In this document: one piece after another, positions 29,007-32,964 of the stretch
Position numbering within the stretch: the stretch's first letter is position 1
Layout: the number at the start of each line of letters is the position of its first letter
From: Actinomycetota bacterium
Lineage (GTDB): Bacteria; Actinomycetota; Thermoleophilia; RBG-16-64-13
Direction: 5' to 3'
Length of the DNA: 39,051 nt
NCBI GenBank assembly: GCA_012729575.1
Contig: JAAYCW010000017.1
Span: 1-39,051 of the forward strand
Position numbers and translations under genes: made by a program
The notes under the pieces: generated by a model
The model's database searches: none
The model's input: the letters and a program-made list of their open reading frames with translations, nothing else
Told to the model about the DNA's origin: nothing

Positions 29007-29573
29007 TTATGAACCCGCCAGCAACACGGCGGCTACGCGGAGGCCCATATGAGCCGCCACTACGACCACGGGCACCAGTTCAGAACTCACCGCCACATGG
29101 CCTTGAGCCGTGACCATCTCAGCCTCGTAAGCCGTCACCCGGGCGTCATCACGCACCCCGGCCACCACCCCTGACATCAATATCATACCCTTGAGCGCCG
29201 ACAAGCGATCCAACGCGGCGTTGGGAGAGTAGATACCGGTCATACTGGGGAAGCGCGGACCCACCGCTGGATCGTTCGGCCCGGTCAGCGGGGATCGCCA
29301 CGTGAGGTCGGCGTGATCCGTGACCACGACAACACGACCGTCTGTTGCCTGCCCGACGCTTCCCCTGCACAGGTAACCGACTACCGGATCGTCACCGCGC
29401 AGCCCCGTCCGCAGCAGGTCGACCTCTGCCCGGCTCAAAGGACGGCCCAGATCTCGCACGCCGGTGTCTCGGAGAGATAGGATCGCATCAGCCGGGCCCG
29501 CCAAGCCTCGGGCTACGGTAGCGGCGATGCGGTCGCCTCCTAGATCGACACGAGGACCAGCGAGTACCCTCAT
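29007..29573 (-). CDS. Divergent, shortened purine nucleoside phosphorylase-like protein
   Basis: A 188-residue protein with clear signatures of PNP/MTAP class phosphorylases in its middle: VVVTDHADLTW (residues 81-92), PLTGPND (95-101) and GPRFPSM (105-111), then AAHMGLRVAAVLLAGS at the end, matching ARHLGLRV...SLITN. Normal enzymes have 265-290 residues. Here the N-terminal phosphate loop and the C-terminal helices are absent, the GPSFET substrate motif reads GVRDDARV, the VGMSTVPE motif reads AVSSELVP, and the base-binding Asn of SLITN is missing. It is unlikely to be an active phosphorylase as encoded. The ATG overlaps the LCP stop as ATGA, and ahcY follows 18 bases later, so it is in the operon. 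Confidence 0.68.
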   Translation of the reverse strand: MRVLAGPRVDLGGDRIAATVARGLAGPADAILSLRDTGVRDLGRPLSRAEVDLLRTGLRGDDPVVGYLCRGSVGQATDGRVVVVTDHADLTWRSPLTGPNDPAVGPRFPSMTGIYSPNAALDRLSALKGMILMSGVVAGVRDDARVTAYEAEMVTAQGHVAVSSELVPVVVVAAHMGLRVAAVLLAGS

Positions 29574-31381
29574 TCCGGAGGTATGTAGATCATCGATTCT
29601 GCCACCGCCAGCAGTTCATCCTCACTCAGAAGATTGAAGATGGTGTTGGACACCCAGTACAGCACCCCGTCGGCCTTCCACCAGATGCGTTCGACTTTGT
29701 CCCGGCTACCGACGATGGTGTAGGTGATACCGTCGCGCGTGACTTCCCGGCCCTCACAAGCAGCCGGGGCATCAACCCACGTGGTCTCCATGATGCCCAT
29801 GTACTGGTCGGTCCAGTGGCCATTCTCCTTGAGTCGGTAGACCATCTTGAAGGCCGGCCTGCTGCCGCCGCCCACTTCGATGTTGTAGGTCGCTCCGGAG
29901 GTCGGCACCCGCTCCGAGAACGAGTAACCCTCGGGCAGATAGAAGGGAGCCCGTACCGCGAAGGGAACCATCTGCGCGATCGTCTTCCAGCCACCCGCAG
30001 ACGGCACGGTATCGGGACCGGGCGGCAGCGAGTACTCCGTGGGGAGGGCGAAATCATCCCCCAGAACAACCGTCACCCTCTCGACAGACGAATCCGTTCC
30101 CACGGACTCCGCACCGATGGCCTCCGCGACCTTCTTGCCTTCAGAAGCCATCCCCGAAGGGCATTCGACCAAGGTCTGTCCGACCGAGCGACCGGCGTTG
30201 TCGACGGTCACGATCGTCGCCCCCAGCGCTCCCAGCCACTCCCCGGCGGCGGCGGCCTCGCCCGCACGGCCGTTGGCGTTGAGCACGTCCACCTCGACAC
30301 CCGATAGGTCCGGCGCCGTTTCCGCGACGGTCGCGGCAGAAGAGACCTCGGAGTCTGGGCCGGTGACACCATCGGATCCCGGGCCGGGAGCCGTGAGGAA
30401 ATCGCTCACCGCCCGGGCAAGGTCCTCGTCGTCCACGAACACGTAGGACACCTCATCCAGTTCATCGGCGACCCCGACCAGGGCGATGCGGCGGATGTTC
30501 TCTCGATTCAGCCCGATGCCCCAGTAGGCTAACTCCAAGATGTCGTTCGCGCCCAAATCCGTAGCCACATTCGAGAACAGAGAACTCACCAGTCCGGGTA
30601 GCCGGAAGGGTAGGTCCCAGCCCATAGCCTGGTCTTTTATGGCGCTCAAGAAGATCTGTTGGCGCTCCATCCGCCCGAAATCGAGGTTGAGATCGCGGCG
30701 GAAACGCACGTAGTCCAGAGCATCGGAGCCGTGCAGGAGCTGGTAGCCCGGCGCCAGGTTGATCAGTTCGTATCTGGGGTTGTCGTTGTAGTAGCGTTTG
30801 TCCACATCGACGTAGACGCCGCCCAAAGAGTCGGTTATATCGCAGAAGGCGTTAAAATCAACCTCAAGGTAGTGGTCGACGTCCACCCCGGTGAGTTCCT
30901 GTATGGTCCGGATGGTGAGCTCTCCCCCGCCCGCTGCGTAGGCGTAGTTGATCTTGTTCATTCCGTGACCCGGTATCTTAACCCGCAGGTCACGTGGGAG
31001 CGACAACAGAGACAGATAGTCCTGATCGGGATCCACATGCACGAGGATAATGGTATCCGAGCGTCCCGGATCATCCTCTTCCTCTTCGCGGTGATCCGAT
31101 CCCAGTAGGAGCAGATTCATCGCCGACGGAGACGGCGGCGCCTGTGTTTCCGAGGTGACGGTCTGCAAAGTGCTGGCCGGCTTCTCCGTGAGAGCTACTC
31201 TGATCTCCGGACTCACCCTGTCGTTGGCGCCCGAGACCTGTTGATGGAACCACGCATAGGCGACCCCGGCCGCGCACAGTAGTAGCACGACCAAGCCGGC
31301 GAGCGTCCAGAGAACGATGCGTTTCCACCGTCCGCCAGACCCTCCCTCGACTTCATAGAGGGTGTACGGCTTGTTGTTCAG
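29570..31381 (-). CDS. LytR-CpsA-Psr (LCP) protein with LytR_C and extra C-terminal domain, probable CTG start
   Basis: About 603 residues. LCP enzymes transfer undecaprenyl-linked polymers such as teichoic acid or arabinogalactan onto peptidoglycan outside the membrane. After a basic cytoplasmic stretch comes one membrane helix (about 23-45), the LCP domain (about 87-315; LLLGSDHRE, LSLPRDLRV, the YLEVDF and DALDYVRFRRDLNLDFGRM segments), a LytR C-terminal domain (about 364-450, VEVDVLNANGRAG), and a C-terminal domain (about 480-603) that resembles DUF4367-type modules. The only in-frame initiator giving the basic N-terminus is a CTG (31379-31381) overlapping the previous stop as CTGA, seven bases after GGAG; a TTG at 31292-31294 would cut into the membrane helix. 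Confidence 0.92.
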   Translation of the reverse strand: MNNKPYTLYEVEGGSGGRWKRIVLWTLAGLVVLLLCAAGVAYAWFHQQVSGANDRVSPEIRVALTEKPASTLQTVTSETQAPPSPSAMNLLLLGSDHREEEEDDPGRSDTIILVHVDPDQDYLSLLSLPRDLRVKIPGHGMNKINYAYAAGGGELTIRTIQELTGVDVDHYLEVDFNAFCDITDSLGGVYVDVDKRYYNDNPRYELINLAPGYQLLHGSDALDYVRFRRDLNLDFGRMERQQIFLSAIKDQAMGWDLPFRLPGLVSSLFSNVATDLGANDILELAYWGIGLNRENIRRIALVGVADELDEVSYVFVDDEDLARAVSDFLTAPGPGSDGVTGPDSEVSSAATVAETAPDLSGVEVDVLNANGRAGEAAAAGEWLGALGATIVTVDNAGRSVGQTLVECPSGMASEGKKVAEAIGAESVGTDSSVERVTVVLGDDFALPTEYSLPPGPDTVPSAGGWKTIAQMVPFAVRAPFYLPEGYSFSERVPTSGATYNIEVGGGSRPAFKMVYRLKENGHWTDQYMGIMETTWVDAPAACEGREVTRDGITYTIVGSRDKVERIWWKADGVLYWVSNTIFNLLSEDELLAVAESMIYIPPE

Positions 31382-32910
31382 TCTGACGCTCCGGTCGGTA
31401 CGACGATCATCGACTGAGCCACCTTAAGCAGTTCATTCGAATGCAAGTAGTACGACAGGGTGTTCGACACCCAATACAGGACTCCGTCCTGTATCCACCA
31501 GACATGATCAGCGCCGCTGCTGGTTCCGACGACCGTGTAGGTTATGCCATTCTTCGTCACTTCCCGACCCTTGGCGGCCGCGGGTGCATCGATCCAACTC
31601 GTCTGCATGATCCCCATGTACTGATCGAGGGGCTCACCCTCCCTGGTCAACTGATAGACCATCTTGACGGCCGCTTCCACCTCATCGCCCACCACTATGT
31701 CATAAGAGCCAGGTTGTCTTCTGTCAGGGTTGCTATCGATGTAGGCGTAGCCTTCGGGAAGATAGCCGGGAGCCATGACCTGGAACGGTGCCGCCGCCGC
31801 AAACTGCTTCCACAACCTACTGTTCTCAATGGCGTCGGGATTCGTGGTGAATACCGACGTGTCGATGGCCGTGGTGGTCGTCGTGCTCGGGCCTCCTGAA
31901 GAGAGTGTCGGCTCATCGGTCTCGGCATCCTCGGCCGACGTAGGCGTGAGCAGCCGGTCGACCGCCTCCTCCACCGCTCCTTCCGGGGGTATAACGTAGG
32001 AGACCTCTTCGATCTCCTGAACGTCACCCACGATACTCACCTGCCGGATCCGGTCCCCACTCAGTTTCGCTGCTCCCCAGTAGGCCAACCTGATGATGTC
32101 ATTCGTGCCCAGGGTGGTCACCAGATTGTCGAAGAGCGCGTTGACCAACCCGGGGAGGTCGAGGACCAGATTCCAGCCCATCGCCTGCTCCCGCAGGGCG
32201 TTCAAGAAACGCTGCTGCCTGTCCATACGCCCGAAATCGTAGTTGAGGTCGTGCCTGAAGCGCACGTAGTCCAGCGCATCCGCCCCGTTCAGCCTCTGAT
32301 AGCCGGGGGAGATCTTGATGAGCTCGTAGTCGGAGTCGGCGTCATCGTTGTAGTAGCGCCGATCGACATCTATGTAGACTCCCCCGACGGCATCGGTCAT
32401 ATCGCTGAAGGCCTGAAAGTCGACTTCCACATACTCGGTGATATCGATCTTGGTCAGGGCCTCCACCGTCTCTATGGCTAACTCCTTGCCACCAAGAGCG
32501 TAGGCGGCATTGAGCTTCTGGAGACCATGACCGGGGACTTCCACCCGCAGATCCCGCGGTAACGAGAGAATCGAAAGGTAGTTCTCATCGGGATCGGCAT
32601 GCACAAGCATGAGCGTATCCGAGCGGGTCTCTTCGCCCGAGCCGCCCGGGCGCTTGTCACAGCCAAGCAGCAGGATATCCATGCCGGTCGGCGATTCGAT
32701 CGCATTCTCCGGAGCTGAGGTGAGCACCTCTTGCAGGCCGGAGTCCGTTGTATGGGTGTCACCCACTTCGCAACTCAGCCACAGGTAGGAGCCACCAACG
32801 ATCGCCAACACCACCACGACCAACCCAACAGCCGCCCAGAGCGCGATCCGGCGAAGCCGGCGCTTCTTCAGTTTTTCGACCGTGTAGACGGTATACGGCT
32901 TGTCGTTCAG
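31378..32910 (-). CDS. LytR-CpsA-Psr (LCP) protein with extra C-terminal domain, probable CTG start
   Basis: About 510 residues, a paralogue of the next gene downstream. It has a basic N-terminus, one membrane helix (about 26-46), an LCP domain (about 77-312; LLLGCDKRPGG, LSLPRDLRVEVPGHG, DALDYVRFRHDLNYDFGRMD), a Thr/Ser-rich linker, and a DUF4367-like C-terminal domain (about 375-510; LPEGYAYID, YMGIMQTSWIDAP, YWVSNTL). It lacks the LytR_C domain. The frame is open to a CTG at 32908-32910, seven bases after GAGGGGAG. The resulting MNDKPYTVYTVE matches MNNKPYTLYEVE of the paralogue; the first conventional codon in frame (TTG near 32823) would remove this conserved part. It is the first gene after a candidate promoter. 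Confidence 0.92.
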   Translation of the reverse strand: MNDKPYTVYTVEKLKKRRLRRIALWAAVGLVVVVLAIVGGSYLWLSCEVGDTHTTDSGLQEVLTSAPENAIESPTGMDILLLGCDKRPGGSGEETRSDTLMLVHADPDENYLSILSLPRDLRVEVPGHGLQKLNAAYALGGKELAIETVEALTKIDITEYVEVDFQAFSDMTDAVGGVYIDVDRRYYNDDADSDYELIKISPGYQRLNGADALDYVRFRHDLNYDFGRMDRQQRFLNALREQAMGWNLVLDLPGLVNALFDNLVTTLGTNDIIRLAYWGAAKLSGDRIRQVSIVGDVQEIEEVSYVIPPEGAVEEAVDRLLTPTSAEDAETDEPTLSSGGPSTTTTTAIDTSVFTTNPDAIENSRLWKQFAAAAPFQVMAPGYLPEGYAYIDSNPDRRQPGSYDIVVGDEVEAAVKMVYQLTREGEPLDQYMGIMQTSWIDAPAAAKGREVTKNGITYTVVGTSSGADHVWWIQDGVLYWVSNTLSYYLHSNELLKVAQSMIVVPTGASD

Positions 32911-32917
32911 CAGTCTA

Positions 32918-32925
32918 CTCCCCTC
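32918..32925 (-). promoter_or_regulatory. Shine-Dalgarno deciding the CTG start of the first LCP gene
   Basis: GAGGGGAG on the minus strand, seven bases before the CTG at 32908-32910 (four before another CTG at 32911-32913). No ATG, GTG or TTG in frame lies near it. Confidence 0.6.
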
Positions 32926-32940
32926 GGATGTAGATGAGGG

Positions 32941-32946
32941 ATTATA
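32941..32946 (-). promoter_or_regulatory. TATAAT -10 box upstream of the LCP operon
   Basis: A consensus -10 hexamer on the minus strand, 30 bases before the CTG start, giving a leader of about 24 bases that contains the ribosome site. The region 17 bases further upstream (CGGGTC-like) is not a recognisable -35, so another sigma factor or an activator may be involved. Confidence 0.45.
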
Positions 32947-32964
32947 GCGCGGACCCTACCGGGA

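Follow-up and report, generated by a model that had tools for sequence, protein, structure and literature searches.

The window, a DNA stretch of 39,051 bp, is one whole contig of an uncultured actinobacterium. On its minus strand, two LytR-CpsA-Psr (LCP) genes, A and B, lie in tandem after genes that we take from their translations to be murA-like and ATP synthase genes (Table 1). Both match Pfam family PF03816 (gene A, E-value: 1.1e-44; gene B, E-value: 8.7e-44), the two scores being 152.6 and 149.7 bits against a curated cut-off of 24.6. Gene B also matches LytR_C (PF13399, E-value: 6.5e-12), while its match to PF14285 falls under the cut-off. When gene A was compared with the PDB sequences, 18 distinct sequences matched at E ≤0.001, the best being TagV (6uf3, E-value: 2e-31). 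Based on their domains, both genes are classified as members of the LytR-CpsA-Psr family with a predicted phosphotransferase role. They resemble the TagT/TagU/TagV-type LCP ligases in that the LCP domain is preceded by a short, basic N-terminus and then by hydrophobic residues, but differ in having a putative CTG start and a KPYT N-terminal motif.

Table 1. Coordinates of the LCP genes and of the features surrounding their putative starts
Feature	Position	Strand	Details
LCP gene A	31378..32910	-	510 codons from CTG 32910; stop TGA 31380-31378
LCP gene B	29570..31381	-	603 codons from CTG 31381; LytR_C and DUF4367-like end
Putative CTG start codon, gene A	32908..32910	-	column conserved in relatives
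Putative CTG start codon, gene B	31379..31381	-	shares bases with the gene A TGA stop as CTGA
Purine-rich Shine-Dalgarno-like site GAGGGGAG, gene A	32918..32925	-	GGAG, gap of 7 to CTG
GGAG Shine-Dalgarno-like site, gene B	31389..31392	-	seven bases ahead of CTG 31381
N-terminal segment NDKPYTVYTVEKLKKRRLRR and start of membrane helix, gene A	32823..32907	-	dropped under canonical-start calling
TATAAT -10-like box	32941..32946	-	~30 bases upstream of the gene A CTG

The start regions of genes A and B

The original prediction was that neither gene has an in-frame ATG, GTG or TTG ahead of its membrane helix and that each instead has a CTG 29 codons upstream of the first conventional codon, seven bases after a purine-rich site. 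Each part of this description agrees with the sequence. The gene A frame opens after a stop at 32958 and its first ATG, GTG or TTG is TTG 32823, 29 codons past CTG 32910; the gene B frame opens after a stop at 31426 and its first such codon is TTG 31294, 29 codons past CTG 31381. Both of these canonical codons fall within the membrane helix. The ribosome site is GAGGGGAG in gene A and GGAG (31392-31389) in gene B, and the predicted overlap of the gene B CTG with the gene A stop is present. Gene A has two consecutive CTG codons (32913 and 32910), and its paralogue and relatives align to the second. Translation from CTG gives (M)NDKPYTVYTVE for gene A and (M)NNKPYTLYEVE for gene B, the similar pre-helix segments that had been noted in the two paralogues. 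As had also been anticipated, gene calling restricted to ATG, GTG and TTG picks TTG 32823 and TTG 31294, clipping the N-terminal segment. The equal distance of 29 codons is not general, as the first downstream canonical codon lies 7 to 48 codons away among relatives; in A and B it is a product of common ancestry or of chance.

Upstream DNA of several relatives, read by eye, contains TANAAT at a distance from the LCP gene similar to that of the TATAAT box before gene A. This placement suggests a short shared leader, and a two-hexamer scan found no full sigma-70 promoter. An inverted repeat spans codons of gene A, but an mRNA hairpin downstream of the CTG was rejected after 29 N-termini were folded (mean z of 0.02).

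Start codons of the LCP genes in the family

LCP matches were identified in all 18 family genomes examined. These provided 35 LCP N-termini, two of which are cut by contig ends and seven of which were dropped because they do not contain the K-P-Y-T motif, leaving 26 motif-bearing genes; the matches G009:C122 and C107, both of which start within the protein, are outside this set. The KPYT segment on which the original prediction rested is thus conserved (26/35). The start codon is CTG in 21 of the 26 genes, TTG in two, ATG in two and GTG in one. In the last five genes the same N-terminus begins with ATG, GTG or TTG, as had been proposed for orthologues, and the three outgroup homologues used for tree building all start with GTG. 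What the prediction had not included is that most orthologues retain the CTG itself. In the ATG and GTG genes and in the TTG gene of G009, the motif is one or two residues farther from the start, and these starts are equivalent by role with a gap in the alignment. The TTG of G014, where an ATG lies six codons upstream, is the sole gap-free replacement of CTG. Among 12 LCP loci from other families, four (L023, L024, L025 and L026) have a related Y-T-x-Y motif with a GTG start and the other eight lack the motif.

Of the 21 CTG genes, 16, representing six genera, have no canonical codon between the upstream in-frame stop and the CTG. The remaining five (G010C85, G001B, G015, G006 and G016) do have one, and in the studied genome gene B overlaps gene A; both observations could indicate that the frame is entered upstream via another rare start, a frameshift or an A-B fusion, with CTG as an internal leucine codon. 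This is very improbable for two reasons. First, just 0-4 codons separate the stop from the CTG in six genes: none in G008a, where the stop directly abuts the CTG, one in G010C53B, two in G012B and four in each of G012A, G002A and G007C62. Second, in the 23 genes with a leucine codon at this column, CTC, CTT, CTA and TTA never occur, despite making up 46% of leucine codons in these genes (a naive chance of 6e-7 that assumes independence among rows that are related). In the genus of G006 and G015, an in-frame ATG ten codons upstream of the CTG is conserved, and the start in this genus may have shifted.

A Shine-Dalgarno match of at least 4 bases precedes the CTG in 19 of the 21 genes with a gap of 4-8 bases (12 of them at gap 7); the two without a match are G003B and G002B. 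The segment downstream of the CTG is coding. Among close relatives, third positions account for 12 of 21 changes in codons 2-29 of gene A, 13 of 18 in gene B and 10 of 13 between G013 and G017. Wider pairs show many amino acid changes in these codons as well, and G006 and G015 run counter to the trend, with 11 nonsynonymous versus 2 synonymous codons. Because the third-position bias begins at codon 2 and the motif is found in 26 of 35 N-termini, the N-terminal segment is not a chance reading frame. The ATG/GTG/TTG rule places initiation within the membrane helix, at TTG 32823 and TTG 31294, which would leave the upstream part untranslated. We give this scarcely any chance, as codons 2-29 evolve as coding DNA, carry the KPYT motif in 26 genes and the first canonical codon is at no conserved place. 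From these comparisons of translated N-termini, start position and conservation, CTG is very probably the start site of both LCP genes.

Other rare starts and the initiation apparatus

To determine how common such starts are, 569,809 bases of G000 were compared with 1,277,783 bases of G012, giving 216 orthologue pairs, 208 of them with both 5' ends. A CTG preceded by a Shine-Dalgarno site, with homology ahead of any canonical codon in both genomes, was found in 3 of the 208 pairs (LCP A, LCP B and a NUDIX gene), a count that misses CTG starts near a canonical codon and genes that are not shared. These were the three CTG cases with a Shine-Dalgarno site among 24 flagged pairs; the other 21 are probably conserved leaders or gene overlaps. 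Twelve aligned CTG cases were also considered, and the nine beyond LCP A, LCP B and NUDIX were rejected because of an adjacent canonical codon, an internal position or an ambiguous CTGATG. At one ambiguous site (G000:C23, near 58998), GTT CTG is aligned with GTG CTG.

The third gene (L189, G000:C14:7885-8859, minus strand; relatives L190-L200), which we take from its sequence to encode a NUDIX hydrolase whose start resembles a zinc ribbon, is unrelated to the LCP genes and was likewise not part of the original prediction. Among the 12 family genomes with a good NUDIX match, its start is CTG in seven and ATG in five. The ATG is at the same column in G007 and G010 and two codons upstream in G008, G005 and G011; in G008 the CTG is also present, but downstream of the ATG. 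CTG starts are therefore rare, yet not confined to LCP genes. The base following the CTG is A in 21 of 21 LCP genes and in 7 of 7 NUDIX CTG starts. As a special four-base signal CTGA is a weak candidate, since A also follows many canonical starts (17 of 26 GTG starts in the background).

The occurrence of CTG starts in two unrelated gene families could also mean that a changed initiation apparatus, either an initiator-like tRNA with a CAG anticodon or a lax IF3, has made CTG an ordinary start. Among the tRNAs read from 36 matches, however, there is an initiator with a CAT anticodon (C80), the Leu-CAG tRNA is of the ordinary long-arm type and no odd initiator was found. By eye, the initiator has three G-C pairs in its anticodon stem. 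IF3 was identified in 17 of 18 family genomes, the exception being G014, which is 78% complete. In each of the 17 family genomes read, the start column of infC (L232, G000:C54 near 3025; L229-L245) holds ATA, and several of these genomes have a GGAGGTG-type site upstream of it; judging from known infC genes, this conserved rare start implies that the usual IF3-type start discrimination has probably been kept. An altered initiator tRNA or a missing IF3 was thus rejected as a cause and, with CTG used in only 3 of 208 pairs, a changed apparatus of any kind is the least credible of the explanations considered. Two further observations were made on the tRNAs. The first pair of an initiator tRNA is usually C1 x A72, while the initiator-like tRNA-Met (L087:1501-1577, G000:C80:12751) appears by eye to have a C1 x U72 mismatch. 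A selenocysteine tRNA was reported by ARAGORN at L224:4-100 (G000:C109).

Probable origin and maintenance of the CTG start

A tree was built from 28 LCP proteins, comprising 25 of the 26 motif-bearing proteins (the short G010C53B was omitted) and three outgroup rows; it was rooted at the midpoint and several of its forks are weak. CTG genes are found on the A branch, on the B branch and on other family lines. The CTG label requires 4 changes on this tree, compared to a mean of 7.1 when shuffled, and a value as low was obtained in 3 of 500 shuffles. By parsimony, the simplest history is likely a single GTG to CTG change near the base of the family, followed by later losses, with CTG apparently in place before the A/B duplication, a point that was also absent from the original prediction.

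The first base of the start codon is C in 21 of 26 genes (0.81), while the commonest base at 49 conserved fourfold columns has a mean frequency of 0.53 and a maximum of 0.73. Any change of this C yields ATG, GTG or TTG. As the C is kept above fourfold sites even though every change would produce a canonical start, it looks to be held by selection. Ordinary starts are also held, with 72 of 91 aligned canonical starts preceded by a Shine-Dalgarno site being identical between G000 and G012, so the conservation of CTG is not by itself proof of selection for weakness. CTG might instead be a real start but a near-neutral relic, its weakness offset by a good Shine-Dalgarno site and its presence due to descent. 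The conservation of ordinary starts fits such a history, as do the ATG starts of NUDIX in some genomes and the use of another start in 5 of 26 LCP genes. We nevertheless consider it unlikely, though with some claim to attention, because conservation of the C exceeds that at each of the 49 fourfold sites although all first-base changes are canonical, and because CUG is normally avoided. In a start codon reconstruction covering 36 genome triplets, gains of CUG number 2 in 61,358 ancestral AUG starts, 1 in 5,080 GUG starts and 1 in 2,468 UUG starts (PMC5622118). Similarly, 20 CUG-start genes (0.024%) in 69 model bacterial genomes are cited in another paper (PMC9845219).

Our preferred explanation is that CTG is a genuine start that was likely kept for the weakness of its initiation and is plausibly IF3-sensitive; we assign this statement as a whole a probability of roughly 0.6. 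The ordinary initiator tRNA (CAU anticodon) would read the CUG of both LCP genes after Shine-Dalgarno binding, with the first-base mismatch of fMet-tRNA on CUG being compensated by the Shine-Dalgarno site. The change from GUG to CUG would probably have happened a single time, close to the base of the family, and both paralogues would have inherited CUG at duplication. Weak initiation would keep low the output of LCP, a wall-polymer ligase for which such restraint is plausible, and, if IF3 destabilizes CUG complexes, that output would be sensitive to IF3, as for sigR and infC. In cryo-EM work that used a tRNA variant, the bases of the first pair lie too far apart to pair strongly (PMC11497404). 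A selection in M. smegmatis points the other way, as no enrichment of CTG (0.03%) was seen at the leadered position (PMC4633059). CUG may accordingly be a very poor start in actinobacteria, which counts against this explanation. Also against it are the upstream in-frame canonical codons of 5 of the 21 CTG genes, the GTG found 7-10 codons downstream of the CTG in G002A, G010C85 and G010C53B, the two CTG genes that lack a Shine-Dalgarno match and the relatedness of the rows compared.

Two known systems are comparable. In Streptomyces, sigR has a GTC start that 32 of 34 species share and that IF3 represses, and its replacement with a canonical codon leads to SigR overproduction (PMC5472188). Like the LCP start, it is actinobacterial, is preceded by a Shine-Dalgarno site, is a rare start kept in relatives and apparently limits output (PMC5472188). 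The two differ in that the GUC mismatch is at the third codon base while that of the LCP CUG is at the first, and in that sigR concerns one genus while the LCP CTG spans several genera of a family. The sigR start has also been proven by mutation and Western blot (PMC5472188), whereas the LCP start is known from sequence comparison. The second system is infC (IF3), described in that source as autoregulated with an ATT or ATC start (PMC5472188). It shares a conserved non-canonical start, which is ATA throughout the studied family, but controls its own repressor, a loop that LCP and NUDIX do not have. Among the listed matches from the open-licence literature, no paper on a CTG start was found for either LCP genes or NUDIX genes, and none of the titles listed for LytR-CpsA-Psr proteins and start codons concerns a rare start.

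Few bacterial non-canonical starts have been characterized. The CUG start described here has apparently been kept through a duplication and across several genera, and its relatives with GUG, UUG and AUG form a ready-made comparison, making it testable whether weak start codons are selected. With systematic clipping during annotation, LCP proteins would lose their basic pre-helix segment. We tentatively suggest, as a possibility short of an expectation, that CUG is a standing selected low-output signal in this lineage (LCP and NUDIX) that is sensitive to IF3; the level of IF3 might then tune wall-polymer attachment, and gene callers restricted to ATG, GTG and TTG would clip all of these proteins.
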